This document shows, in pieces, positions 24,774 through 36,945 of a DNA stretch of 64,000 nucleotides. This DNA comes from Amycolatopsis jiangsuensis (GTDB lineage: Bacteria > Actinomycetota > Actinomycetes > Mycobacteriales > Pseudonocardiaceae), in assembly GCF_014204865.1 (NCBI RefSeq), contig NZ_JACHMG010000001.1:5110501-5174500 (forward strand). Reading direction: 5' to 3'. The stretch's first letter is position 1; each line of letters starts with the position of its first letter. A program made the translations under genes and the position numbers. The notes below the pieces were generated by a model that saw nothing but the letters and a program-made list of their open reading frames with translations, had not been told where the DNA came from and searched no databases.

Positions 24774-24795
24774 TGTGGATAACTCCTGTGGATAA
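24774..24795. promoter_or_regulatory. Two consensus DnaA boxes
   Basis: Two copies of TGTGGATAA (complement TTATCCACA) at 24774-24782 and 24787-24795, 13 bp apart and in the same orientation, between crgA and the PH-domain gene. The second overlaps the PH gene's GTG start. Both match the classical 9-mer exactly. Confidence 0.75.
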
Positions 24796-25222
24796 CTACC
24801 CCACCTCGTGGGCACCGCGACAGAACGTTGTGGTAGTGGCTTGGGTCCTGACCGTGCTGCTGCTGGCCGGCGCCGTGGCGGACGGCGTCTTCGGTGACGG
24901 CAAAGGCGCCGTGCTGCTGGGTCTCGCCACGATCGCGTCCGGCGTCTTCGCCGCGCACGGGACCATCGTGCGGCCCCGGCTGACGGCGGACGCCGGAGGC
25001 CTGCTCATCCGCACGCTCAGCGGTGCGCAACGCCTCCCCTGGCCCGGCACCACCACCCGGCTGCGCAGTACCCGCCGGCTCGGGCGCGACGGCGTCACCC
25101 TGGAAGTCGAGCACGACGACCGGCTGTTCGTCTTCGGGCAGCTCGACCTCGGCGAGGACCCCCGCGACGTGCTCGACGTGCTGGACGTGCTGCGGGCCCG
25201 CTGGGATCAGCGGCCGCAGTAG
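24788..25222 (+). CDS. PH-domain membrane protein (Rv0010c-like)
   Basis: 144 residues: two N-terminal membrane helices (about 15-34 and 40-60, VVVAWVLTVLLLAGAVA and AVLLGLATIASGVFAAH) followed by a small PH-like beta domain (about 62-144) with RPRLTADAGGLLIRTL and LEVEHDDRLFVFGQLDLG. Position between crgA and ppiA matches Rv0010c of mycobacteria. The GTG start is embedded in a DnaA box. The gene overlaps the convergent rhomboid gene by 16 bp. Function unknown. Confidence 0.82.
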   Translation: MDNYPTSWAPRQNVVVVAWVLTVLLLAGAVADGVFGDGKGAVLLGLATIASGVFAAHGTIVRPRLTADAGGLLIRTLSGAQRLPWPGTTTRLRSTRRLGRDGVTLEVEHDDRLFVFGQLDLGEDPRDVLDVLDVLRARWDQRPQ

Positions 25223-26166
25223 TAGGCCTGTGCCCCCTGCAGCACCGCGAACTGGCACTGCACCGACGGGATCTGGGTGCTCCGCCAGATCAGCAGCCCG
25301 ACGAGCGCGACCACGATGATCGCCAGCCCGACGGACTGCCAGCGGACCCGGTTGCGCTCCGGCGCGTACAGCACCGCCACGGCCACGATCGCGCCGGTCA
25401 CCAGTCCGCCGGCGTGCGCCCAGATCGAAATCCCCGGGATCGAGAACGTGATGTAGGCGTTGATGGCCAGCGTGATGAGCAGCCCGGTGGGGTTCAGCCG
25501 GAGCTTGAACACGATCACCGCGTAGCAGCCCATCAGGCCGAACAGCGCCCCGGAGGCGCCGGCCGTGGCCCGGTTCGGCACGTCGAACAGCAGGACCGCC
25601 GTGGACGCGCCGAGCATCGACACGAAGTACAGGGCGAGGAACCGCGTCCGGCCGAAGACCTGCTCCAGCGCGCGGCCGATCATCCACAGCGAGAACATGT
25701 TCGCCGCGATGTGGATCGGGCCGAAGTGCAGGAAGCCCGAGGTGAAGATCCGCCACCATTCGCCACCGCCGAGGGTGGGGCTGGTGGCCAGGACACCCAG
25801 CTGTTCCAGCTCGGCGTTGCCGTTGTCGAACAGGCTCTTCGCCTGGACCACGGTGAGGAAGTAGATGACGACGTTGACCGCGAGCAGCGTCGCGGTGGCC
25901 ACCACCGAGCTGCTCGGGCGGGCGCCGGCGATGGTGCGCGAGCCCAGTCCCGAACTGCGGTACTGGCGTTGCTGAGTCCGCTGCTGCTGGGCGCCGGTGT
26001 GCACGCAGTCGGTGCACTGGAACCCGACCGGTGCCTCACGCAGGCAGTCCGGGCAGGCCGGGCGCCCGCAGCGCGCACAGCTCAAACCGGTCGGACGGTT
26101 CGGGTGCCACCAGCACCCGGGCAGGGCGGACTGCGGGTACGCGGGGGGATTCGGCGGTTGGTTCAC
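25207..26166 (-). CDS. Rhomboid family intramembrane serine protease
   Basis: 319 residues. The N-terminal cysteine-rich segment (about 18-57; CARCGRPACPDC and CTDC) looks like a zinc-binding domain. Six to seven membrane helices follow. Catalytic serine in GASGALFGL and catalytic histidine in WAHAGGL on a later helix. Cleaves membrane proteins; substrate unknown. It has the common actinobacterial architecture and sits beside ppiA as in related genomes. Confidence 0.92.
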   Translation of the reverse strand: MNQPPNPPAYPQSALPGCWWHPNRPTGLSCARCGRPACPDCLREAPVGFQCTDCVHTGAQQQRTQQRQYRSSGLGSRTIAGARPSSSVVATATLLAVNVVIYFLTVVQAKSLFDNGNAELEQLGVLATSPTLGGGEWWRIFTSGFLHFGPIHIAANMFSLWMIGRALEQVFGRTRFLALYFVSMLGASTAVLLFDVPNRATAGASGALFGLMGCYAVIVFKLRLNPTGLLITLAINAYITFSIPGISIWAHAGGLVTGAIVAVAVLYAPERNRVRWQSVGLAIIVVALVGLLIWRSTQIPSVQCQFAVLQGAQAYYCGR

Positions 26167-26207
26167 GATGTCCCCAACCTACCGAAACCCACCACGTCCT
26201 CGCGGAC

Positions 26208-26732
26208 TCAGTCCTCGACGGTGACCTTCTCGATGATCACGTCGGACAGCGGACGGTCCGCCGGGCCGGTCGCGGTGCGGCCGATCGCGTCGACGACGTT
26301 GCGGGACTCCTGGTCCGCCACCTCGCCGAAGATGGTGTGCTTGAAGTTCAGGTGCGCGGTCGGCGCGACGGTGATGAAGAACTGCGAGCCGTTGGTGCCC
26401 GGCCCGGCGTTCGCCATGGCCAGCAGGTACGGCTTGGAGAACTGCAGCTCCGGGTGGAACTCGTCACCGAACTTGTAGCCGGGGCCGCCGCGGCCGGTAC
26501 CGGTGGGGTCACCGCCCTGGAGCATGAAGCCGTCGATGACCCGGTGGAAGATCGAGCCGTCGTAGAACGGACCGGTCTTGCCGCCCTGCGCGTTCGGCTG
26601 GGTGTACTCCTTGGAGCCGGTCGCCAGCCCCACGAAGTTCGCCACCGTCTTCGGCGCGTGGTCGGGCAGCAGGTTCAGGTGGATGTCACCCTGATTGGTG
26701 TGCAGGGTGGCCTTACGGGCGCTTTCAGTCAC
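26208..26732 (-). CDS. ppiA: Cyclophilin-type peptidyl-prolyl isomerase
   Basis: Cytosolic PPIase, 174 residues from GTG at 26732 (VTESARKATLHTNQGDI). Cyclophilin core blocks are present: FHRVIDGFMLQGGDPTGTG, NAGPGTNGSQFFIT and HTIFGEVAD, with the catalytic arginine in FHR. A longer frame to 26861 adds a non-conserved leader. Equivalent to Rv0009 by position and sequence. Confidence 0.94.
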   Translation of the reverse strand: MTESARKATLHTNQGDIHLNLLPDHAPKTVANFVGLATGSKEYTQPNAQGGKTGPFYDGSIFHRVIDGFMLQGGDPTGTGRGGPGYKFGDEFHPELQFSKPYLLAMANAGPGTNGSQFFITVAPTAHLNFKHTIFGEVADQESRNVVDAIGRTATGPADRPLSDVIIEKVTVED

Positions 26733-26938
26733 CCCGTCATCGTGCCATCCCTTCGCACAATTGGGGGGTTCAGGGGGCGCCCCGGGCCGGTGCGCAATCG
26801 CACATCCCCAGGTGAACGGTCCTTTCTCCAGGTTTGCCATGACCCCGTCCGGGGAAGCCACAGCGGTACGCGGCGAAAAAGGGCAGGATAGGTTACAGGC
26901 AACAGAGCGGTTTCAAAACGATTGATGAGGTGAAGGCC

Positions 26939-27550
26939 ATGACCCGGGCCGTGGATTCGGTCGACGAGTCGGTCAAGTCCGGCGCCGGCCTGCGCAAGCG
27001 AGCCAGCAGTGCCGGCAAGGCGGGCGCGGAGGCCGCTGCAGCAGGCGCCGAAGAGCTGGGAAAGCGGGGCCGTCGCGCGCAGCGGAAGCTGGCGAAGAAG
27101 ACGGAGCTGACCCGCAAGGAGCTGAAAAAGAGCTCCGCCGCGGCGCGTAAGGAGGCGCTGGCCCGCGTGGCCGAGTTGAAGAAGCCCGGCCGCAAGGCCA
27201 GGAAGGCCGCGATCAAGGCAGCCAAGTCCACCGGTGAGTCCAAGCGCCGCGGCAAGAAGGACTTCAAGGCGGCGAAGAAGGAGTTCCGGGCCGCGCTGGT
27301 CGAGGCCAAGACCGCGGCGAAGGGCACGCGCAAGCGTCGCCGTTGGCCGTGGGTGGTCGGGCTGGCCGCGGTCGCCGCCGGCACCGCGGTGGCGCTGAAG
27401 TCGCGTCAGCCGGAGCCGCCGGTCGCCCCGGCCCCGCCTAAGGCGACGCCGCCCGCTCCGCCGGCTCCGTCGGCCAAGCCGGTCGCGGACGCCGAGCCGA
27501 AGACCAACGGCAAGGCACCGAACACGCCGGCTGCCGAGAAGAAGAACTGA
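26939..27550 (+). CDS. Lys/Ala-rich protein with C-terminal membrane helix
   Basis: 203 residues. The first 135 are strongly basic and Ala/Lys-rich, with histone-tail-like AAKKA words and probable long helices. A transmembrane helix (about 137-155, WPWVVGLAAVAAGTAVAL) follows, then a Pro/Ala-rich tail. ATG at 26939 has GAGG eight bases upstream; a GTG at 26930 is an alternative. It occupies the place of cwsA near ppiA in mycobacteria, but I see no specific sequence evidence that it is CwsA. It may tether nucleic acid or acidic polymers to the membrane; this is inference. Confidence 0.75.
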   Translation: MTRAVDSVDESVKSGAGLRKRASSAGKAGAEAAAAGAEELGKRGRRAQRKLAKKTELTRKELKKSSAAARKEALARVAELKKPGRKARKAAIKAAKSTGESKRRGKKDFKAAKKEFRAALVEAKTAAKGTRKRRRWPWVVGLAAVAAGTAVALKSRQPEPPVAPAPPKATPPAPPAPSAKPVADAEPKTNGKAPNTPAAEKKN

Positions 27551-27560
27551 GCAGTGCACG

Positions 27561-27596
27561 AAGTGGGCCCCGGGATGTGCGTCCCGGGGCCCACTT
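27561..27596. terminator. Terminator after the Lys/Ala-rich gene
   Basis: 15-bp perfect inverted repeat AAGTGGGCCCCGGGA / TCCCGGGGCCCACTT with a 6-nt loop, followed by TCGTT. Confidence 0.9.
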
Positions 27597-27617
27597 TCGT
27601 TGCGGTGCTCAGGCGGT

Positions 27618-28070
27618 TCAGGCCGTCGCGGCGTGCTTGTCGATCAGCTGGCCGAGGCGCGGGAGGGCCTCCTCGACGTTCTTCTTGCCGTTCGGGCGCA
27701 TCTTCGAGTAGACCTTCTTGATGCTGTCGCGGCTGCTCTTGTCGGCGCGCGAGTCGGTGACGCTCAGCAGTGCGTCGGCTGCCTCGTCCGAGCGGCCGGT
27801 GAGGTAGGCGCCGAAGTCGTCGCCGCCCTTGGTCCGGTAGTCGCCGTAGAACGGCTCGAGGGCGACCGCGAAGTCGTCGAGCAGGCTGTCGACGGCGGCG
27901 GGGATGATGCCCGGCTTGATCTTCTTGACGGCCGCGAAGCCGGTCTTCACGACCGCGCCCGAGACCCCGCCCTTGTCGGAGACCTCGGCGTCCACGAGGC
28001 CCTCGAGGTCGGTGACCACGGTCGGGCGACGGCTCGAGTCGAGCAGGATTTCCTTGAGGGTGTCAGCCAC
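27618..28070 (-). CDS. Conserved actinobacterial protein (DUF6918-like)
   Basis: 150-residue soluble helical protein from GTG at 28070 with AAGGA upstream. Blocks VADTLKEILLDSSRRPTVV, SDKGGVSGAVVKTGFAAVK and a long helical C-terminus. The pattern matches a conserved actinobacterial hypothetical family that I associate with DUF6918. Function unknown. A longer frame to 28184 adds Pro/His-rich sequence without a ribosome binding site. Confidence 0.65.
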   Translation of the reverse strand: MADTLKEILLDSSRRPTVVTDLEGLVDAEVSDKGGVSGAVVKTGFAAVKKIKPGIIPAAVDSLLDDFAVALEPFYGDYRTKGGDDFGAYLTGRSDEAADALLSVTDSRADKSSRDSIKKVYSKMRPNGKKNVEEALPRLGQLIDKHAATA

Positions 28071-28206
28071 GAATCTGTCCTTGTCGTCTGGATGGTGAAG
28101 TGCTGGTGGTGCCGACGGGCACCCGCCCGCGCGAGTGCTCGTCGCCTGCGCGTGCCGCACAGGGTAATACAAGATCAACTTCACTCACCCGTGTGGAGGT
28201 CATTAC

Positions 28207-28731
28207 TCAGAGCTTCAGGGCGGAAATGGCCTCTTTCGCCACTGTGCGTGCTTTGATGCTCTGCTTTTGATTACTCGACACGATGACCGCCGCGGGCCCC
28301 TTCGCGACCGCGTACACCACGCCGTCGTCGGACGGCTGGTAGCCGCCCTTCCACCCGGCGGGCTCCGACGCGGGGTTGGACGTGTCCACCGGCGCGGCCT
28401 TGTCCACGAGTGCCGTCGCCGTGGCGCTCTCGCCCACGTACACGCGCACTGTCAGCTGCAGACCACCGTCCGGACGGTAGAAGAAGCACGCCGGGTGCGG
28501 CTGGTCGTCGGACACCTTCACCTCGGTCACGTGCTGACCGTTCGCGTCCTCCGCCTGTGCCTCCGACAGGTACGGGCACTCCGCGGTACGCGCCGGCTGC
28601 GGATCGGGCGGCAGTCCGGCGGACGAACTCGCCGAGGAGGGGGAAGGTTGCGGCGTCCCGGGGACCTGTGCGGCCGGACTGCAGCCGGCGAACAGGACCA
28701 GAGCGGGGGCGAGCAGGAGAATTCGTCGCAT
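28207..28731 (-). CDS. DUF2020-type lipoprotein
   Basis: 174 residues with a lipoprotein signal peptide: MRRILLLAPALVLFAGC, lipobox cysteine at 17. A Ser/Pro-rich spacer (about 25-50) leads into a compact domain with ECPYLSEAQAEDANG and PACFFYRPDGG. Exported and anchored to the outer face of the membrane. Matches the actinobacterial DUF2020 pattern. A TTG at 28746 would add five residues; the ATG is preferred. Confidence 0.78.
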   Translation of the reverse strand: MRRILLLAPALVLFAGCSPAAQVPGTPQPSPSSASSSAGLPPDPQPARTAECPYLSEAQAEDANGQHVTEVKVSDDQPHPACFFYRPDGGLQLTVRVYVGESATATALVDKAAPVDTSNPASEPAGWKGGYQPSDDGVVYAVAKGPAAVIVSSNQKQSIKARTVAKEAISALKL

Positions 28732-28822
28732 GGCGCGCACAGTCAACCATGCCCGGTGAGGTCACCGCGAAGCTTTCCCCGTGCGACGATGGCCGGAACT
28801 CCCCGTTCAGCCAGGAGGTCCC

Positions 28823-29554
28823 GTGCTCACGCCGGAGCAGTACCTGCAGGTGGTCGCCGAGCGTGTGACCCGCAGCGGCGGCCGGCTGAACACCGTGCGG
28901 ATCGGGCCGGTGCAGGCCGCGGTGGGCCTGTTCACCGAGTCGATCATGCTGTCCACGATGAACTACTGCGTGGTGGCCGCGGCCTACCCGGAGATCGACG
29001 CGCAGACCCTGCACCAGTTCACCGGCCTGGCCACCCAGCACGCCCGCGCGAACGTGCAGGGCACGGTCGGCTGGACCGCGGCGTCGGTGGTGATCGCCGG
29101 ACTGGTCGGGCGCGTGCACCCGGACGCAGCCCAGCTGGCGAGCGCCAAATCGGGCAACCAGTTCGGCGGCGAAACCCGGATGGTCGCGGTGGACCCGCAC
29201 GCGGGCGCGACGTACGCCTGGGTGGGCGGCAAGTTCTGGGGAGCCGCGGTACAGGGCTCGGTGAACGCGAAGCTGCTGTTCTGCTTCCCCCAGCCCGCTG
29301 AGGCCTTCCAGCAACTGCAGTGGCAGGCCCGGCAACAACCGGGATACGGCGCAGCGGCACCCGGTCAGCCCTACGGTGTTCCCGGGCAGCCAGGCGTTCC
29401 CGGGCAGCCAGGTGTTCCCGGGCCAGGTGGGTTTCCCGGTCAGCCGATTCCGCCGGGGCCGCAGCCGCGGACCGGGCCACCGCCGGCCGCGGGGCCGCCC
29501 GGTCCGCATCCGCCGCACTACCCGCCGCCGGGGCAACCGCCATACGGTCGCTGA
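28823..29554 (+). CDS. Hypothetical protein with collagen-like Gly-Pro-Gln tail
   Basis: 243 residues from GTG with AGGAGG five to nine bases upstream. The first 165 residues form a globular-looking domain (LTPEQYLQVVAERVTRSGG, FTESIMLSTMNYCVVAAAYPE, GGKFWGAAVQGSVNAK). The tail from about 180 is low complexity with repeats of PGQPGVPG. No family recognised and no export signal. Its stop is 6 bp from the stop of the convergent ABC exporter. An upstream ATG at 28781 lacks support. Confidence 0.65.
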   Translation: MLTPEQYLQVVAERVTRSGGRLNTVRIGPVQAAVGLFTESIMLSTMNYCVVAAAYPEIDAQTLHQFTGLATQHARANVQGTVGWTAASVVIAGLVGRVHPDAAQLASAKSGNQFGGETRMVAVDPHAGATYAWVGGKFWGAAVQGSVNAKLLFCFPQPAEAFQQLQWQARQQPGYGAAAPGQPYGVPGQPGVPGQPGVPGPGGFPGQPIPPGPQPRTGPPPAAGPPGPHPPHYPPPGQPPYGR

Positions 29555-29560
29555 TCGGGC

Positions 29561-31348
29561 TCACCCCGGCCGTCCGACCTGCGGCAGCCGCAGTGTCTCC
29601 GCGTGCCACCGCGGATCGTCGCCGGCTGGGTGCGGGTCCTGCCCGCCGGGCACCACGACGGTCCGGTCGGCGATGGCTGCCAGCGCGGGATCGTGCGTGA
29701 TCAGGATGGTGGTGCGGCCGCCGGCCAGCCGGCGCAGTGGTTCGGCCACCCGCCGGGCCGAGAGTTCGTCCAGGTTGGCGGTCGGTTCGTCGAGCACCAG
29801 GACCGGGGTGTCCGCGACCAGCGCCCTCGCGATGCCGATGCGCTGGCGCTGACCGCCGGAGACGCCGTGTCCGTTGCGGCCGATCACAGTGTCGTAGCCC
29901 TGCGGCAGAGCGGTGATGAACGCGTGCGCGTCCGCCGCTTCGGCCGCCGCGACGATCTCGCTCATCGTGGCACCGTCGCGGCCGTAGCCGATGTTGTCCG
30001 CGATCGTGCCGTGGAAGACGGCCGTTTCCTGCGGCAGCAAGGAAATGCCGGACCGCAGGGAATGCTGGGTCAGGTCACGGACGTCGAGCCCGTCGAGCCG
30101 CACGGTGCCGGAAACCGGGTCGTCGAACCGCAGCAGCAGTTTGGCGATGGTGGACTTGCCCGCGCCGCTCGCACCGATCACCGCCACCAGCTCGCCGGGG
30201 TACACGGTCAGCGAGAAGTCCCGCAGCACCCACTGCGGCGATCCCGGGTACCGGTAGGAAATCCGCTCCAGCCGGACCTCGCCTCGCGCGCCACGCAGTT
30301 GCCGGGCACCGGGCGCGTCGGTCACGGCCGGCCGCGCGTCGAGGAGTTCGATCAGGCGCGCCGACCCGGTCGAGGCAGCGGCGACGGTGAGGGTGAGCGT
30401 GCCGAGGCTCTGCACCGGCGGGTACAGGTAACCGAGGAACGCCGCGAACGCGAACAGTTGCCCCAAAGTCATCCGGTGCTGCGCGATTTCCCACGTGCCC
30501 AAGCCGATGACGCTCAGCACGCACACGGTTTCCAGCAGGTGCACCGAAGGCGAGTACAGCGCGCCGAGTTTGACGAGCGACAGCTTCGTGCTCATCCAGC
30601 TCAGCCCGTGCCGGTGCAAACGCTCCTTCTCGGTGTCCTGCCGGTTGTACACCTGCGTCACGGCGAGGTTGGCGAGATCTTCTTCCACCACCGAGACGAG
30701 TTCGCCGTGGTAGGCACGTTCCTTCCGGGCGACGGTGCCGATCCGCCGGGAGAAGTTCTTGGCCACCACCGCGAACAGCGGCACGGCGGCGAACGCGGCC
30801 AGCGCGAGTTCCCAGCGCAGCAGCAGCGCGCCGGTCGCGAAGAACACGACGGTGAGCACCGAGGTCGCGGCTTCCACGAGCCCGGAATTGACCAGCGCCT
30901 CGACCGATTCGACGTCCGAGGTCAGCCGCGCGACCAGATCGCCGTGTTTGCGCCTTTCCAGAAAATCCGGGGAAAGCGTCTGAACGTGGGCGAAAACCCG
31001 GTCACGCAGGCGCAGGAGAAAACGCTCACCCGCCCGGGCTGTCAGGTAGTGGCCGGCGAAGACCAGTCCCCCGGAAAGCACCACCAGTCCCACCCATTCC
31101 AGGGCCGGTACCCAGAACGCGGACAGATTTCCGGTGGTGAGCGCGCCGTCGGTGATCACCGAGAACATCCAGATCGCCGCGGCGTCCCCGGCCGCCGCAC
31201 CGATCAACAGCAGCGCGCCGAGGGCCAGCCATCGGCGCTCCCGGCGCGCGATCGGCCAGAACCGGCGCAGCACCGCCCGTGCCGAAAGCACCGGAGCCAG
31301 CACTGTCGCGGTCACGCCGTGCGGGGAATCCTGTTGCTGGGTCGGCAT
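29561..31348 (-). CDS. ABC exporter, fused membrane and ATPase domains
   Basis: 595 residues. A cytoplasmic N-terminus of about 38 residues (no C39 peptidase domain), six helices in the type I exporter fold (about 40-330), then an ATPase domain with Walker A GASGAGKST, signature VSGGQRQR, Walker B VLVLDEPTANLD and H-loop ITHDPA. It probably works as a homodimer or with an unlinked half. ATG preceded by GGGAGGAC. It lies 63 bp downstream of the 51-residue peptide gene on the same strand, with a strong hairpin between, so the peptide is a plausible substrate. Confidence 0.9.
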   Translation of the reverse strand: MPTQQQDSPHGVTATVLAPVLSARAVLRRFWPIARRERRWLALGALLLIGAAAGDAAAIWMFSVITDGALTTGNLSAFWVPALEWVGLVVLSGGLVFAGHYLTARAGERFLLRLRDRVFAHVQTLSPDFLERRKHGDLVARLTSDVESVEALVNSGLVEAATSVLTVVFFATGALLLRWELALAAFAAVPLFAVVAKNFSRRIGTVARKERAYHGELVSVVEEDLANLAVTQVYNRQDTEKERLHRHGLSWMSTKLSLVKLGALYSPSVHLLETVCVLSVIGLGTWEIAQHRMTLGQLFAFAAFLGYLYPPVQSLGTLTLTVAAASTGSARLIELLDARPAVTDAPGARQLRGARGEVRLERISYRYPGSPQWVLRDFSLTVYPGELVAVIGASGAGKSTIAKLLLRFDDPVSGTVRLDGLDVRDLTQHSLRSGISLLPQETAVFHGTIADNIGYGRDGATMSEIVAAAEAADAHAFITALPQGYDTVIGRNGHGVSGGQRQRIGIARALVADTPVLVLDEPTANLDELSARRVAEPLRRLAGGRTTILITHDPALAAIADRTVVVPGGQDPHPAGDDPRWHAETLRLPQVGRPG

Positions 31349-31367
31349 CTTCGTCCTCCCGTACGCG

Positions 31368-31395
31368 GTGGGGCGCCGCAGTCGCGGCGCCCCAC
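31368..31395 (-). terminator. 12-bp hairpin between peptide gene and exporter gene
   Basis: Perfect inverted repeat GTGGGGCGCCGC (31368-31379) and GCGGCGCCCCAC (31384-31395), 4-nt loop, with no U tract. It ends 19 bp before the exporter ATG and leaves the exporter ribosome binding site free. Probably an attenuator or mRNA-stabilising stem allowing more peptide than exporter. Confidence 0.65.
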
Positions 31396-31411
31396 TCCCC
31401 TCCGGTACCGG

Positions 31412-31567
31412 TCAGCCACGCGGGTGCGTCGGGTGGCCGGGGCCGCCGATCCCGTCGTTGCGCACGATCGAGATGCTGCCGTCCGGGTTGCGGACGATCG
31501 ACACGCCACCGCTGGGGCGGGTGGGAATCGGAAGCGGGAAGGTACGTCCGCCGACCGGCTTGCCCAT
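31412..31567 (-). CDS. 51-residue peptide, candidate exported precursor
   Basis: Short ORF of 52 codons with a strong ribosome binding site (CGGAGG six bases before the ATG). N-terminal MGKPVGGRTFPLPIPTRP, a Gly-Gly at 20-21, then a tandem 10-residue repeat (22-31 VSIVRNPDGS and 32-41 ISIVRNDGIG), and a Gly/His/Pro-rich C-terminus ending THPRG. No signal peptide and no cysteines. Located directly upstream of an ABC exporter on the same strand and divergent from a two-component system. It looks like a precursor or signalling peptide; no modifying enzyme is adjacent. Family not recognised. Confidence 0.6.
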   Translation of the reverse strand: MGKPVGGRTFPLPIPTRPSGGVSIVRNPDGSISIVRNDGIGGPGHPTHPRG

Positions 31568-31746
31568 GGTGTTCCTCCGTTTTCTCGGTGTTCTGCCAAA
31601 CCGTGTTGGCCTTGCCCCACCAGATCTACCGATGCCCCGGTATCAGCGTCCTTTCAGGAAAATAAGAGCAAACCCACAGGATCGCGTTACGGTTTCGAAA
31701 CAGCGGCGCTGCTACCGTGCGGAAAAAGGCAGGACGGAGATCGCTC

Positions 31747-32415
31747 GTGCGCGTATTGGTCGCCGAAGACGAGAAGACCCTCGCCGGGTACATCGCGGAA
31801 GGCTTGCGGGACAACGCGATGTCGGTCGACCTCGCCCACGACGGGGACACCACACTGGACAAGCTCGGGACCGGTCGCTATGACGTCGTCGTACTGGACC
31901 GGGACCTGCCGGGAACCCATGGCGACGAGGTCTGCCGGCGCCTCGCCTCGGCAGGCGCCGGAACCAGGGTGCTGATGCTGACCGCGATGTCCGACGTGCG
32001 GCAGCGGGTCGCCGGGCTGCGCCTCGGCGCCGACGACTACCTGGGCAAGCCGTTCGACTTCGACGAGCTGGTCGCCCGGCTCGACGCGCTCGGCCGCCGG
32101 CCCCGGGAGGCCGCGCCGCCCGTGCTGCGCGGGGGCGACGTCGTGCTCGACTCCGCGCATCGCCGGGTGTCCCGCGGCGAACGGTACCTGTCGCTGACGA
32201 ACAAGGAATTCGCCGTGCTGGCGCAGCTGCTGGCCGCGGCGGGTGCGGTGGTCAGCGCCGAGGAGCTGCTCCGGTCGGTCTGGGACGAGCACGCGGACCC
32301 GTTCACCAACGCGGTCCGGATGACCATGCACCGGCTGCGTGCGAAGCTCGGCGAACCGGCCGTCATCGAAACACTCCCGGGCGTCGGTTACCGGATCGTG
32401 GATCCTCCGTGCTGA
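31747..32415 (+). CDS. OmpR/PhoB-type response regulator
   Basis: 222 residues from GTG at 31747 (VRVLVAEDEKTLAGYI). Receiver domain with acidic pocket EDE, phospho-acceptor D in VVVLDRDLPG (about 51) and K in LGKPFDFDEL; C-terminal winged helix (about 125-220) with LTNKEFAVLAQLL and the wing LPGVGYRI. Overlaps the kinase gene by 7 bp. It diverges from the peptide-exporter genes across a 179-bp region that includes the palindrome GTTTCGAAAC (31692-31701). Confidence 0.92.
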   Translation: MRVLVAEDEKTLAGYIAEGLRDNAMSVDLAHDGDTTLDKLGTGRYDVVVLDRDLPGTHGDEVCRRLASAGAGTRVLMLTAMSDVRQRVAGLRLGADDYLGKPFDFDELVARLDALGRRPREAAPPVLRGGDVVLDSAHRRVSRGERYLSLTNKEFAVLAQLLAAAGAVVSAEELLRSVWDEHADPFTNAVRMTMHRLRAKLGEPAVIETLPGVGYRIVDPPC

Positions 32416-33530
32416 GCCGTCTCGGCATCCGGGCGAAGCTGACCGTGCTGCAGACCGGCGTGTTCTTCGTCGCCGGCTGCGTCGTCGTCACCGTCATCTA
32501 CTTCCAAAATCAGGTCGTGATCGCCCCGATCCAAGTGAGGGGCGGCGGGCAAGCGCACCGCTCCGTGCCCGGCACGGCCGAAGGTGTCGCGATCTGGCGG
32601 AACGACACGCTGTCCACTTTGCTCACGCAGTGGATAGTGGCACTGCTCGCGATGACCGCGCTCACCGGATTGCTGACCTGGTGGGTCACCGGGCGCGTGC
32701 TGAAGCCGGTGCGGCGGATGACCGCGCAGGCCCGCCGCATCTCCAGTGCCAATCTGCACGAGCGCATCGGCGTGCACGGTCCCCACGACGAGTTCAAACA
32801 CCTCAGCGACACCTTCGACGACCTGCTTGCCAGGCTGGACAACGCTTTCCACGCGCAAGGCCGGTTCATCGCCAACGCCTCGCACGAACTGCGCACCCCA
32901 CTGGCGGTCGCGCGCACCACGCTCCAAATCGGACTTGCCGGCACAGATCCGGAGCGGGTACGCCGGGTGCGCGACGACCTGTTGCAGAACAACGACCGCT
33001 GCATCGCGTTGATCAACGGCATGCTCACCCTGGCCACCTGCGAACAAGGGCTCCGCGAGCGCGACACCGTGGCGTTGGACGCGGTGGTCCGGCAAGCAGT
33101 CGGCGAGTACGCCGCGGCCGATCCAGGCGGCGGGCCGCGGATCACGCTGGTCGCCCCGGACGGCTGCCCGGTGGCCGGGGACGGCCTGCTGCTGGGCCAG
33201 TTGACGCGCAACTTGGTGGAAAACGCGGTCCGCTACAACGTGCCCGGCGGTCAGGTCCTGGTCGAGGTCGGCAGGGAGGGGCTGCTGCGCGTCACCAACA
33301 CCGGCCCGGTGATCGAGCAGTCCGCGGTGGCCGCCCTGTTCGAGCCGTTCCGCCGCGGGGTCGAACGCACGGCCTCGCCGAACGGCGCGGGGCTGGGCCT
33401 GTCGATCGTGCACGCCATCGTCACCGCGCACGACGGCACGATCCACGCCCGCGCGCGGGAAGGCGGCGGCTTGGTCATCGAGGTCACCGTGCCCCGGGTT
33501 TTGTCGCCGGCGCTGGTGGCCGTGGGATGA
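32409..33530 (+). CDS. EnvZ-type sensor histidine kinase
   Basis: 373 residues. Two membrane helices (about 9-29 and 70-92) flank a small extracellular loop of about 40 residues. HAMP linker, dimerisation helix with FIANASHELRTPL (phospho-acceptor His), then HATPase blocks LVENAVRYN and GAGLGLSIVHAIV. Partner of the overlapping OmpR-type regulator. The small sensing loop suits an envelope or peptide signal; the ligand is unknown. ATG start in the regulator's last codons. Confidence 0.92.
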   Translation: MLSRLGIRAKLTVLQTGVFFVAGCVVVTVIYFQNQVVIAPIQVRGGGQAHRSVPGTAEGVAIWRNDTLSTLLTQWIVALLAMTALTGLLTWWVTGRVLKPVRRMTAQARRISSANLHERIGVHGPHDEFKHLSDTFDDLLARLDNAFHAQGRFIANASHELRTPLAVARTTLQIGLAGTDPERVRRVRDDLLQNNDRCIALINGMLTLATCEQGLRERDTVALDAVVRQAVGEYAAADPGGGPRITLVAPDGCPVAGDGLLLGQLTRNLVENAVRYNVPGGQVLVEVGREGLLRVTNTGPVIEQSAVAALFEPFRRGVERTASPNGAGLGLSIVHAIVTAHDGTIHARAREGGGLVIEVTVPRVLSPALVAVG

Positions 33531-33569
33531 GGGTGGACCGGCGGTCGTCGGGCGGCCTATCGTCGGGGA

Positions 33570-34208
33570 ATGGTTTCCCTGCGTGGCTGGCCTTCGTTCC
33601 CCGAGCGGCTTCCGGACTTCGACCCGGCCGCGGCCCCGGAACGACCCGATGACTTGTTCCTCACCTGGCTCACCGAAGCCGGTGAGCACGTACTGGCACC
33701 ACACGCGGTCACGCTGTCCACAGTGGATCAGGACGGTGCGCCGGACGCCCGCGTGGTGATCCTCAAGGACGTCGGGCCGGACGGATGGGCCGTCGCGACC
33801 AGCTCGGAAAGCCCGAAAGGCCGGCAGCTGAGCGCGAACCCCCGTGCCGCGCTCACGTTCTTCTGGCCGGGCCGCGGTCGCCAGGTGCGGGCGCGCGGCC
33901 TGGTGACGCCCGCTTCGGCCGATGCGTCCGCCGACGACTTCCTGGCGCGGCCGCCGGCCTCACGCGTCGAGGCGTACCTCGGCCGGCAGTCGGAAGTGCT
34001 CGCCGATCACGGACAGCTCACCGAAGCTGCCGCCGAGGCCGAGCGCTGGGTGGCGGAAAACCCCGGCACCGCACCGGAAACCTGGACCAGGTACCTCGTC
34101 CGTCCCGCGACAGTCGAGTTCTGGCAGGCCGCGCACGACCGCCGGCACCTGCGCCTGCGTTACCGGCTCGACGGGGATTCCTGGGTCCGCGAGCGCCTCT
34201 GGCCGTGA
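33570..34208 (+). CDS. Pyridoxamine 5'-phosphate oxidase-like flavoprotein
   Basis: 212 residues of the PNPOx fold. The FMN-binding segment is ARVVILKDVGPDGWAVATSS with SPKGRQL, and the C-terminal segment is WQAAHDRRHLRLRYR with VRERLWP, as in PdxH/PhzG-type enzymes. The C-terminal motif supports a pyridoxamine-phosphate oxidase or PhzG-like oxidase rather than an F420-dependent reductase. The gene stands alone between the histidine kinase and a convergent hypothetical gene. Confidence 0.82.
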   Translation: MVSLRGWPSFPERLPDFDPAAAPERPDDLFLTWLTEAGEHVLAPHAVTLSTVDQDGAPDARVVILKDVGPDGWAVATSSESPKGRQLSANPRAALTFFWPGRGRQVRARGLVTPASADASADDFLARPPASRVEAYLGRQSEVLADHGQLTEAAAEAERWVAENPGTAPETWTRYLVRPATVEFWQAAHDRRHLRLRYRLDGDSWVRERLWP

Positions 34209-34214
34209 GTCCGA

Positions 34215-35102
34215 TCAGGACAGCCGGGAGTTGGCCCGCAGCACGGAGATCGCGCCGACCGTCGCGTAACCACGCCATTCCAGCGCGGCGGCCGGGGAAA
34301 AGCTGGCGAAGTCGACCTGCCAGCCACCGTCGGCTTGCTGCCCGGTGGCCAGCCGCGTCAGGTCCGCTTCGACTGCCTCCGGGCGGAACAGGCTTCGCGC
34401 CGGTCCGGGAACCGGCGCGAAGTCCAGTGGCCGCAACACTTCCCCTGCCGAGCCTCCGGCGACCGGCACGATGCCGTCGTCGGGGATGAACCTTCCCAAC
34501 CGGGCAAGCAGTTCGCCGGCTTCGGGGTAGCGGCCGCTCGCGGCATCGAGGAATCGGATCGCGAAGGACAACTCGATCGCGTGCGGTTGCTCGGTGATCT
34601 CCCTGATCGCCGACAGGCACACTTCGGTGGCCTGGACGGTCCACGGATGCTGCGCCGCCGCCGGGTCTCCCTCGGCCACCCGCAACGCGGTACCCGCGAC
34701 GAACGCCGTGCTCTGCAAGGAAAACCGCGTCGGGTCGGCCGAGGTCCAGAACGGTGCGCTGGCCGTCGGATCGGCGACTGGGAAGGCGAACGGCAACCCG
34801 CCACCGGGCAGGGACACCGACGTCAGCCAGTCACACAGCTCCGCTGCGCGCGGGGTGGTCACCGGCGCGACCTCGGCGAACACCTCCAACGCGTGCAACG
34901 CTCCGCCCGGCTGGCTTTCCGGCGCACGCAGATCCGCTTCCAGACCCCAGCCGTAACCGCCGTCGGGATTGCGGTAACTCTCGACGGCGGCCAGTACGTC
35001 CGCCGCCCGCGCGGTCCCTTGCATCAGCGCGAACCGCCGTCGATCGAGCACCCGAGCGTGCCCGGCGAGAAACGACGCGGCAGCGGAGAAGTTCACAGTC
35101 AC
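34215..35102 (-). CDS. Hypothetical protein with terpene-cyclase/prenyltransferase-like alpha-toroid repeats
   Basis: 295 residues. Repeated helix-loop units with Gly-rich turns such as YRNPDGGYGWGLEADLR and GQQADGGWQVDF resemble the QW-type or prenyltransferase toroid repeat. I see no Asp-rich catalytic motif, so enzymatic activity is doubtful. No signal peptide. Function unknown. The out-of-frame reading of the upstream SCP2 gene runs 272 bp into this gene. Confidence 0.7.
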   Translation of the reverse strand: MTVNFSAAASFLAGHARVLDRRRFALMQGTARAADVLAAVESYRNPDGGYGWGLEADLRAPESQPGGALHALEVFAEVAPVTTPRAAELCDWLTSVSLPGGGLPFAFPVADPTASAPFWTSADPTRFSLQSTAFVAGTALRVAEGDPAAAQHPWTVQATEVCLSAIREITEQPHAIELSFAIRFLDAASGRYPEAGELLARLGRFIPDDGIVPVAGGSAGEVLRPLDFAPVPGPARSLFRPEAVEADLTRLATGQQADGGWQVDFASFSPAAALEWRGYATVGAISVLRANSRLS

Positions 35103-35210
35103 CGCTCCACCGTGACACGTTCGGCGCGAACTGTCTTGAACAGATCGGTCGCGTCCTACCGACCTCCGGCCGGCCCAGCTGCGCGTTTTTCGCGCCGCGG
35201 ACAGGGCGTC

Positions 35211-35568
35211 TCATGGCTTGGGCGCCCCCCCCCCGGGCCAGGAGCTTGTCGAGCTTGATCGCCAGGTCGAGCTTGCCCTTGACCTTCACCTTGCCGGTCA
35301 TGAAGAGGCGGCGAGCGCTGGCCTGCCCACCGACGATGGACAGGAAGTGCTCCTCGTCGGTGCTGACCCTCGTGTGGGAAGCGTCGGTCGCGCCGGCCCT
35401 CACCGTGATCGCACCGTTGTCGATCGTGACCGTCCAGGTTCCGGCACCGACGATCTCGAAGCACACGACGCCGGTGGTGCCGCCGATCCGCTCGGCGCCG
35501 CTTTCCGGTGCCATGGCGGCGAAGAAGTCCGCCGCGGTGGCGAACCCGCCCTGCTCGCGGTCGCTCAT
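35211..35568 (-). CDS. SCP2 sterol-binding domain protein, frameshifted at a G10 tract
   Basis: Starts ATG at 35568 (MSDREQGGFATAADFFAAM) and shows an SCP2-like domain: TWTVTIDNGAITVRAG, DEEHFLSIVGGQASARRLF and GKVKVKGKLDLAIKLDKLL. Near the expected C-terminus lies a run of ten G (C on the plus strand, 35225-35234). As sequenced, the frame continues about 130 residues to 34831, deep into the next gene. With one G fewer the protein ends ARGGAPKP at 35211, the usual length for this domain (about 118 residues). I give the coordinates of that likely intact form. Overlaps the CMD-family gene by 4 bp. Confidence 0.7.
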
Positions 35569-36167
35569 GCCCCGGCCTCCACGTGCCGGCCGATCTCCCA
35601 GCCACCCTTTTCCACGAGGTGCCGCTCGGCGTATTCGCGCGGCGCTTGCTCCAGGGTCGTCGCCATCGTGTCGTTCCACCGGTTCATGTGGCCGAAGAAC
35701 GCGATGACGGCGACGATCTCGATGCACTGCTCCTCACTGAAGTGCCTGCGCATCTCGGCGAAGTCCTCGTCGCTCACCTGGTTCGGGTTCATTCCGCCGT
35801 GCCAGGCCACGCGCAGGGCGGACCGCTCCGCTTCCGAGAACAGCGGAGAGGTCTCGAACTCGTAAGCCGCTTCGATCTTCGCGTCGTCCACCTCGAAGAC
35901 CTTGGCGTGGTTGGCCGTGTGCGCCTGGCAGTAGCGGCACCCCTGGGCGGCCGACGCCAGCATCGCGATCAACTGCTTGAAGCCGCCGTCGACCTCATCG
36001 GGACGCAGCACGACGAACGACCATTCCATGAATGCCTCGTACAGCTCGGGCTTCTTGGCCATCGTCAGCAGCGAGTTGGGCAAGACGCCCATGAACTCGG
36101 TCGTGGCTTCGAACTTTTCCTCGTACTGCGGCAGCGATTCTCGCGGCAGCGGGTCGATCCGTCCCAT
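35565..36167 (-). CDS. Carboxymuconolactone decarboxylase/AhpD-like family protein
   Basis: 200 residues from ATG with AGGAGGGG upstream (MGRIDPLPRESLPQ). The redox CxxC with nearby His is in QGCRYCQAHTANH, and there is a FFGHMNRWNDTMA block. This resembles alkylhydroperoxidase-like (AhpD) proteins rather than true lactone decarboxylases. It forms an operon with the SCP2 gene (ATGA overlap) and diverges from a TetR-type regulator with an inverted repeat between them. Confidence 0.88.
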   Translation of the reverse strand: MGRIDPLPRESLPQYEEKFEATTEFMGVLPNSLLTMAKKPELYEAFMEWSFVVLRPDEVDGGFKQLIAMLASAAQGCRYCQAHTANHAKVFEVDDAKIEAAYEFETSPLFSEAERSALRVAWHGGMNPNQVSDEDFAEMRRHFSEEQCIEIVAVIAFFGHMNRWNDTMATTLEQAPREYAERHLVEKGGWEIGRHVEAGA

Positions 36168-36191
36168 GGGAACCCCTCCTTCGACTGTCTC

Positions 36192-36222
36192 GCATATAGT
36201 GCACTGCAGATGCAGACTATGC
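36192..36222. promoter_or_regulatory. Imperfect inverted repeat, probable TetR operator
   Basis: GCATATAGTGCA (36192-36203) and TGCAGACTATGC (36211-36222) pair at 9 of 12 positions around a 7-nt spacer, between the CMD/SCP2 operon start and the TetR-type gene. Located 18 bp upstream of the regulator ATG. Confidence 0.5.
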
Positions 36223-36240
36223 AAGAGGATAATCGGAGCC

Positions 36241-36945
36241 ATGACCCGTCCCGCACCCACGACCGCCGCCCAGCGCCGCGAAGCGGTGGCCAGGGCGTTC
36301 GGCGAGCATGGCGAAGGCGCGGCGCGGGTGGCGCGCGAACTCGGCGTGGCGCCCTCGACCGTCTACCGGTGGGCACAGAAGGGCGACGACCAGCGCGACA
36401 GCTCCGAACGGCTGATTGCCGCGTGCCAGGAGCTCGCGCATTCGTCGAGCTACGACGAGCTGACCATCGAACACGTGGCGAGGACAGCGGGCGTCGCGGT
36501 GCGTACGGCGTTCAACTGCTTCCCCACCAAGAAAAGCCTCTTCGGCGCAGCCGTGCAGGACGCCGGCGTACGGATGGTCACGGCGATGGCGCGAGAGGTC
36601 TCGCTGCCGGCAGACCCGCTCGCCGGACTGCGGGATCTGCTGGTCTCCGGACTGCGGGCGGCCCAGGATCAGCCGTCGGCGTACCTGCTGTTCGCCGACC
36701 TCGGTGTGCCGCCCGCCGATGACCAGACGTCCCCGTGGCACGAAGCGATGGTGGCGCCGTGCGAACGCCTCATCACGGCAGCCATCGCCGACGGGCAGCT
36801 GCCGCCCTACGAGGAACCGGCAGTCCAGGCCCGGATGCTCGTCGCCGCGGCCCGGTCACTGAACGCCATGGTCGTCACAGGAACGCCTCCGGAAACGGTC
36901 GAGCCGCTGATGGCGCGGCTACCGCTGCTCCTGCCCCCTGCTTAG
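36241..36945 (+). CDS. TetR-type regulator with extra N-terminal helix-turn-helix
   Basis: 234 residues from ATG at 36241. An N-terminal homeodomain-like HTH (about 7-45: AAQRREAVARAFGEHG then ELGVAPSTVYRWAQ) resembles transposase or Hin-type DNA-binding domains. The canonical TetR HTH follows (about 60-100: DELTIEHVARTAGVAVRTAF, NCFPTKKSLF) and a ligand-binding helical half. Controls the divergent CMD/SCP2 pair by inference. The doubled DNA-binding architecture is uncommon. Confidence 0.85.
   Translation: MTRPAPTTAAQRREAVARAFGEHGEGAARVARELGVAPSTVYRWAQKGDDQRDSSERLIAACQELAHSSSYDELTIEHVARTAGVAVRTAFNCFPTKKSLFGAAVQDAGVRMVTAMAREVSLPADPLAGLRDLLVSGLRAAQDQPSAYLLFADLGVPPADDQTSPWHEAMVAPCERLITAAIADGQLPPYEEPAVQARMLVAAARSLNAMVVTGTPPETVEPLMARLPLLLPPA

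Follow-up and report, generated by a model that had tools for sequence, protein, structure and literature searches.

LmrB of Lactococcus is an ABC multidrug half-transporter. In the LsbB/LmrB system, a single transporter is reported for both the secretion of, and the immunity to, the leaderless bacteriocin LsbB (PMC6131525), and LsbB and EntK1 are described as having an amphiphilic N-terminal helix (PMC5413573). Aureocin A53-like leaderless bacteriocins are cationic by their reported net charges (PMC6131525) and are described as small globules made up of four to five helices; they often occur with PH-domain proteins, and some have been predicted, and partly synthesised, from Actinomycetota (PMC11580447). 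Here we describe a locus of Amycolatopsis jiangsuensis, located in a stretch of 64,000 nucleotides (the window; contig NZ_JACHMG010000001.1, positions 5,110,501 to 5,174,500), in which a gene for a 51-residue peptide precedes a gene for an ABC exporter. The exporter belongs to a clade found at 91 loci. We consider it likely that the locus is a module of two genes, one for a cationic peptide that is leaderless, unmodified and secreted, the other for an ABCB-type exporter dedicated to it; two-component control would be an optional addition.

The closest functional analogue of this module is LsbB with LmrB, since in both a short peptide without a leader would be served by one transporter. The two differ in that the family peptides described here are of low complexity and rich in Pro, Arg, Trp or His, carry an N-terminal motif, are followed by a stem-loop slot and have an activity that is so far predicted. 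Aureocin A53-like bacteriocins, as these sources present them, are likewise leaderless, cationic and about 50 residues long, with ABC transport genes nearby. However, their globule is an improbable fold for peptides rich in Pro or made of poly-Arg, no partner gene recurs at the loci studied here, and none of 25 representatives of the 91 family peptides matched Pfam or NCBIfam at E<=0.01 (NCBIfam, none for 14). Described peptide families were set aside as a home for these representatives because of this lack of library matches. C39 double-glycine exporters also stand beside a small Gly-Gly peptide gene, whereas the window exporter has no C39 domain and the Gly-Gly of the window peptide is absent from the ortholog at locus L098. 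The Pro-rich (apidaecin/oncocin), Trp/Arg-rich (indolicidin) and His-rich (histatin) host-defence peptides of animals fall into composition classes that look alike; the window family differs in being bacterial, exporter-linked and without a signal-peptide precursor, and no homology is claimed. The module would resemble LsbB/LmrB in its working yet, by the tests made, lies outside the described bacteriocin families. The literature searched, including searches with exact peptide words, contained no description of the module; subscription journals and preprints were not covered, so its absence in print is unproven.

The closest exporters were found in Amycolatopsis (81% identity in Amycolatopsis ultiminotia, P0003, and 71%), Crossiella (61%) and Kutzneria (58%), and further exporters at about 44-56% were found in Saccharopolyspora, Nonomuraea, Actinomadura and probably Streptomyces. 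At the cut-offs used, such an exporter is present in 3/80 genomes of the genus, 9/249 of the family, 10/394 of the class and 38/150 of probable Streptomyces. Two exporter matches lie on annotated plasmid records. Loci L001, L003-L005 and L086-L094 were excluded from the set used with the looser ORF rule below (L001 and L002 overlap, and the rest are superseded by the wider copies L095-L106); the clade was then defined as all remaining loci with a tblastn score >330 bits (91 loci) and the outgroup as the 68 loci below this score. After removal of L115, which has an in-frame stop, and of eight outgroup rows shorter than 400 aa from the tree and the exporter alignment, a tree of 150 exporters placed the 91 clade rows on one branch apart from the 59 others with an SH-aLRT of 100 (quick method, midpoint root). 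The exporters are thereby shown to be one group, but since exporter similarity was used to label the rows, the tree is no blind test of the peptide. A broken, partial exporter match in Paractinoplanes atraurantiacus (L079; 58%, 182 bits), with no clear peptide upstream of the matched part, is probably a decayed member of the clade, and was counted in the outgroup under both ORF rules. The exporters of L115, G787:C36 and G717:C9 each contain one in-frame stop and are possibly decaying copies or the product of sequencing errors.

The clade keeps a short gene in the slot in front of the exporter. A strict automatic rule (ATG start, 20-80 codons, Shine-Dalgarno match of at least 4, end within 320 nt upstream) found a short open reading frame (ORF) at 79/89 clade loci, compared to 18/66 outgroup exporters, 18/89 antisense strands of the same regions and 22/112 regions upstream of other genes in the same loci. 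With a Shine-Dalgarno match of at least 5, these counts became 64/89 for the clade and 4/66, 4/89 and 10/112 for the outgroup, antisense and other-gene sets. The ORFs found by the strict rule had a mean charge of +8.7 in the clade, +3.3 in the outgroup, +2.6 in antisense and -0.1 in front of other genes. Loci that the rule missed or misread have the peptide further upstream or a weaker Shine-Dalgarno sequence. Three loci with less than 350 nt upstream (L098, L141 and L047) were uncounted in this test, and L017 (39% identity) was in neither group; in the peptide counts that follow, L017 is included and L098 stands outside. The earlier note on this DNA, made from the letters alone, had suggested looking for short ORFs beside homologous exporters and held that a lack of conservation there would speak against its proposed precursor peptide. 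The slot is kept in relatives, and the outcome of this check is thus contrary to such a refutation.

These short ORFs evolve as protein-coding genes. The pooled ratio of nonsynonymous to synonymous change (dN/dS) was 0.34 in 13 groups covering 47/91 loci (groups chosen by eye, pairs non-independent) and was below 1 in every group, whereas the other five reading frames gave values of 0.56-1.89. Differences fell on the three codon positions in the numbers 603/441/974. The family peptides are coding and under purifying selection. GC content at the three codon positions of the window ORF (0.65/0.63/0.87) lies near the average for the 91 family peptides (0.61/0.63/0.86), and the tiny window gene looks real.

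A stem-loop follows the peptide stop in most of the family. The 75 nt 3' of the stop fold better than shuffled sequences (z < -1.5 in 88/91, mean z -4.06; window z -3.9). Stems of at least 12 bp, allowing GU pairs and one mismatch, were found at 75/91 loci, compared to 26/233 regions after other genes, 4/91 shuffled sequences and 3/91 positions inside the exporter. The stem letters vary by group, with compensatory changes in 6/15, 2/13, 2/12, 1/19 and 7/20 pairs of five groups (chosen by eye; these same alignments also served to predict the structure). Such a hairpin would be in keeping with a message stabiliser, or a partial terminator, that gives many peptides per exporter. The hairpin lies at a median distance of 12 nt from the stop, and this closeness would also suit a cis-acting leader peptide, in which stalling of ribosomes on Pro- or Arg-rich codons would switch the hairpin and thereby regulate a drug-efflux pump. 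A short ORF and a hairpin preceding an ABC transporter are a classic layout, and runs of Pro and Arg can slow ribosomes. We nevertheless regard a leader peptide as unlikely. Selection acts on the whole ORF, the peptides range from 25 to 68 aa, and by eye their types share no common stalling motif. An antiterminator-like fold (70 nt upstream plus the 5' arm) had a mean z of -0.40 compared to -6.19 for the hairpin (n=79), though 10/79 reach z<-2; the lack of a regular alternative of this kind speaks against a switch, and an attenuator was rejected for want of a consistent antiterminator-like fold. The U tract of an intrinsic terminator is likewise uncommon, with at least 5 T among the 10 nt that follow at only 5/91 loci. 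Three loci (L104, L113 and L123) have, in front of a single exporter, a tandem of two peptide genes that are related yet distinct, which also argues against a leader.

The two-gene module with a secreted peptide is further supported by the composition of the family. Among the curated peptides (median length 42 aa), 85/91 are small and cationic in the manner of leaderless bacteriocins, with a charge of at least +3, as is the window peptide; the median charge is +10. The peptides are Lys/Pro-rich, Arg/Trp/Cys/Gly-rich, His/Asp-rich or Gly/Arg/Tyr-rich, and those of the window's own sub-clade are Val/Ile/Pro-rich with scattered Arg. An N-terminal hydrophobic-x-Pro motif, picked after viewing the list, is present in 60/91 peptides (shuffle mean 8.1, maximum 17), and a frequent start is M-S-F-x-K-(I/L/V)-x-P. 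Peptide composition tracks exporter distance (Mantel r 0.46; maximum 0.08 in 300 permutations), a correlation that shared descent alone could explain. A profile of the Lys/Pro type retrieved 386 proteins at E<=0.1 by sequence match alone; the named ones among the 120 matches listed are called hypothetical or uncharacterized. The window peptide appears to belong to a large and so far unnamed actinobacterial family of peptide-exporter pairs, with short, mostly positively charged peptides.

Two further observations concern the peptides. Some 800 bases upstream of their listed peptide, L153 and L158 contain an additional Lys-rich short ORF (with Tyr, His and Cys) that has a strong ribosome-binding site, and each may therefore produce two dissimilar peptides. 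At L117, L119 and L145 (exporters at 46-47% identity), the peptides begin with MAIF-x-x-L-(I/L)-P. Those of L117 and L145 are rich in His and Asp and have almost no net charge, pointing to metal binding in place of a simple polycation action.

The exporters of the clade carry acidic residues at particular positions. Residue 273, placed in the fifth transmembrane segment by hydropathy and alignment, is Glu in 85/91 and Gln in 6/91 clade rows, while no acid is present in the 59 outgroup rows. Residue 180 is Asp or Glu in 82/91 clade rows; the outgroup has no acid there and most often Lys. Acids at columns 108, 150, 222 and 287 are enriched in the clade yet present in 17-35% of the outgroup. This positional signal is compatible with a cationic substrate, which counts against a leader peptide.

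At the window locus itself (Table 1), the gene order is as the earlier note gave it, with the peptide gene directly upstream of the exporter and the sensing genes alongside; the ORF, which begins with an ATG, does have a strong ribosome binding site in front of it. Between the end of the ORF and the exporter gene there are 63 bases. A domain scan matched the exporter to PF00664 and PF00005, with weaker hits to AAA/ABC models as well and none to a C39 model, in line with the absence of a C39 peptidase claimed before. The combination of PF00664 and PF00005 marks it as an ABCB-type half-transporter with fused transmembrane and nucleotide-binding domains, and its nearest solved structures are ABCB proteins first, then MsbA and Sav1866. 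The predicted OmpR-type regulator and EnvZ-type kinase with a small outside loop were borne out: the regulator matched Response_reg and Trans_reg_C and the kinase HAMP, HisKA and HATPase models, and hydropathy places the transmembrane segments of the kinase at residues 12-30 and 71-89.

Table 1. Features of the peptide-exporter locus, in positions of the window.
Feature	Positions	Strand	Description
ABC exporter	29561..31348	minus	ABCB-type half-transporter of 595 aa without C39 domain; presumed to be the dedicated exporter
Glu273 codon of exporter	30530..30532	minus	in hydrophobic segment taken as the fifth transmembrane segment
Glu180 codon of exporter	30809..30811	minus	
Stem-loop	31368..31395	minus	3' of peptide stop; perfect 12 bp stem, GACT loop, without U tract
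Peptide gene	31412..31567	minus	51 aa, ATG start, MGKPVGG...THPRG, net charge +4
Shine-Dalgarno sequence of peptide gene	31574..31578	minus	GGAGG, match length 5
Candidate regulator site	31692..31702		TGTTTCGAAAC, in divergent intergenic region
Response regulator	31717..32415	plus	OmpR family, divergent from peptide gene; start codon may be slightly downstream
Sensor histidine kinase	32409..33530	plus	two predicted transmembrane helices, outer loop of about 40 residues

Downstream of the kinase gene, positions 33570-34208 encode a PNPOx-like oxidase. Nine more window genes (24788-36260) were scanned and gave cyclophilin, rhomboid, bacterial PH, carboxymuconolactone decarboxylase and DUF domains, with three genes having no match. 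The cyclophilin, rhomboid protease and PH-domain genes lie at 24788-26861, where the exporter gene ends 2.7 to 5 kb away, in a stretch that we take to be an ordinary actinobacterial neighbourhood. PH-domain proteins are known from leaderless bacteriocin clusters (PMC11580447).

The recurrent N-terminal segment followed by a variable remainder resembles a leader-core layout, and some peptide types are rich in Cys, Trp or His. The peptide might therefore be the precursor of a ribosomally synthesised and post-translationally modified peptide (RiPP), recognised by a minimal tag at its N terminus and modified by an enzyme encoded elsewhere. The gene neighbourhoods make this rather improbable. Gene clustering of 25 wide loci recovered the exporter in 25/25 and nothing else in more than 6/25; the next cluster (6/25) lies at scattered positions, and its two printed members resemble short-chain dehydrogenases by eye. 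No recurring maturation enzyme was seen in these neighbourhoods; although their genes were called crudely, any enzyme of normal size common to them ought to have appeared. No peptide-modifying domain was found in the nine further window genes, so the view that no maturation enzyme is adjacent stands. The window peptide itself has neither Cys nor Trp. The exporter has no C39 domain and no partner gene recurs in the 25 neighbourhoods, as would be expected of a leaderless product, while the short N-terminal motif could be a tag.

The two-component pair is optional, as 15 of the 25 wide loci gave no response regulator or histidine kinase hit. This search covered the wide loci, and loci with only 1.5 kb flanks were outside it. 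Relatives of the regulator at 60% identity or more were found at 6 loci and at 36-42% at 4. A divergent, adjacent pair occurs at five loci (the window, L095, L099, L102 and L103), with regulators 67-71% identical to that of the window at the latter four. In L101 the pair lies upstream on the same strand; in L100 the closest two-component relatives are about 9 kb downstream and not adjacent; and in L098 no pair was found in the available stretch, which stops at the contig end. The window sub-clade comprises eight exporters. The peptide-exporter-sensor layout of the earlier note holds for the peptide and exporter, whereas the pair varies and is adjacent in a Pseudonocardiaceae sub-clade. L095 (G000:C1, about 7,836,000) is a second peptide-exporter-two-component module in this genome; its Pro/Ser-rich peptide (MAKSIPAIPGLSP...) is unrelated to that of the window locus.

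In L095, L099, L102 and L103, the gap between regulator and peptide contains a strongly conserved non-coding pattern, GCACAAC...TGTTTCA...GCATATCG...GAAAC, which is a candidate operator, and the window has TGTTTCGAAAC at the corresponding place. This suggests that the regulator may control the peptide operon through an element in the divergent promoter. Adjacency to the exporter in all listed clade loci would also suit a peptide that remains intracellular or membrane-bound and serves the exporter or the kinase as a small subunit or regulator. We judge this very improbable: no membrane helix is apparent by eye, the peptide types are far more variable than the exporter, and the kinase cannot be a general partner of the peptide because most of the wide loci have no two-component hit.

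The window peptide alone would not have led to the family. It was found in 1/80 genomes of the genus, its own, and a protein database search that depends on shared 5-residue words returned only a self-match, so a homology search with the peptide alone was abandoned as a route to the family. The sole ortholog recovered, L098, has its 5' end cut off at a contig end; 19 of its last 31 residues are identical without gaps (counted by eye), it has the same PRG end, and its stop is also trailed by a hairpin of similar structure and different letters. The A. ultiminotia locus was outside the peptide comparison. The Gly-Gly and the tandem repeat emphasised in the earlier note are present as letters, and an exact repeat of at least 5 residues arises in 178/20000 shuffles of the peptide's letters. 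L098, however, has GDG in place of Gly-Gly and a single copy of SIVRN, and no common GG position was noticed by eye across the curated list. Since neither feature is kept in the ortholog, they mean less than had been thought, and the reading of a Gly-Gly leader followed by a repeat unit was dropped.

Several points weigh against a secreted cationic peptide with its own exporter. A looser rule finds a Shine-Dalgarno-preceded short ORF at 91/91 clade loci but also at 50/68 outgroup loci; the presence of an ORF is therefore a weak argument by itself, which has to be carried by the strict rule together with charge, selection and the hairpin. Outgroup genomes differ in GC content, so that the antisense and other-gene sets are the matched controls, and 22/91 peptide choices were set by hand (20 by prefix and 2 later), while the strict-rule test used automatic picks only. 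Six of the 91 peptides have a charge below +3 (L039 -5, L145 -1, L158 -1, L117 0, L153 +1 and L155 +1). In the exporter, the basic residue Arg211 is also clade-specific (89/91), and the overall content of residues 21-330 hardly differs between clade and outgroup (acid 8.3% and 7.6%, base 9.4% and 9.5%). No recurring immunity gene was seen in the 25 wide neighbourhoods, and a toxic peptide might need one unless the exporter protects. For the window peptide itself the selection signal is weak (pS 0.42 and pN 0.33, the proportions of synonymous and nonsynonymous differences over 31 codons to the single, 5'-truncated ortholog), and the case for selection on it rests on the family. Finally, the support for translation, export and activity comes from sequence.

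Under the two-gene reading, a divergent promoter, probably under the neighbouring two-component pair, would drive a message carrying the peptide, then the stem-loop, then the exporter. The short cationic peptide would be translated without a classical leader, and the stem-loop would protect or partly terminate the message, yielding many peptides per pump. The exporter, presumably a homodimeric ABCB-type pump, may recognise the short N-terminal hydrophobic-x-Pro segment and the positive charge, aided by the acids in its transmembrane part, and would secrete the peptide unmodified. Outside the cell, the peptide would most likely act as an antimicrobial or envelope-binding polycation, as its charge, composition and diversification suggest, with a sequence that diversifies fast beside a conserved exporter. 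The family peptides would probably be secreted as weapons or envelope-binding agents. More tentatively, and with clearly less confidence than for the module itself, these loci may represent a large family of minimal actinobacterial modules whose hypervariable, unmodified cationic peptides are convergent in composition with the animal host-defence peptides named above and are recognised for export through a minimal N-terminal motif, with no cleaved leader.

If this is correct, actinobacteria contain a family of ribosomal peptides that the usual cluster mining would probably miss, because it has no modifying enzyme, leader or known domain. A single exporter sequence would then be a hook for many candidate antimicrobial peptides in antibiotic-producing genera. 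It would also raise the question of how one transporter clade recognises peptides that are alike only in their charge and a short N-terminal motif.

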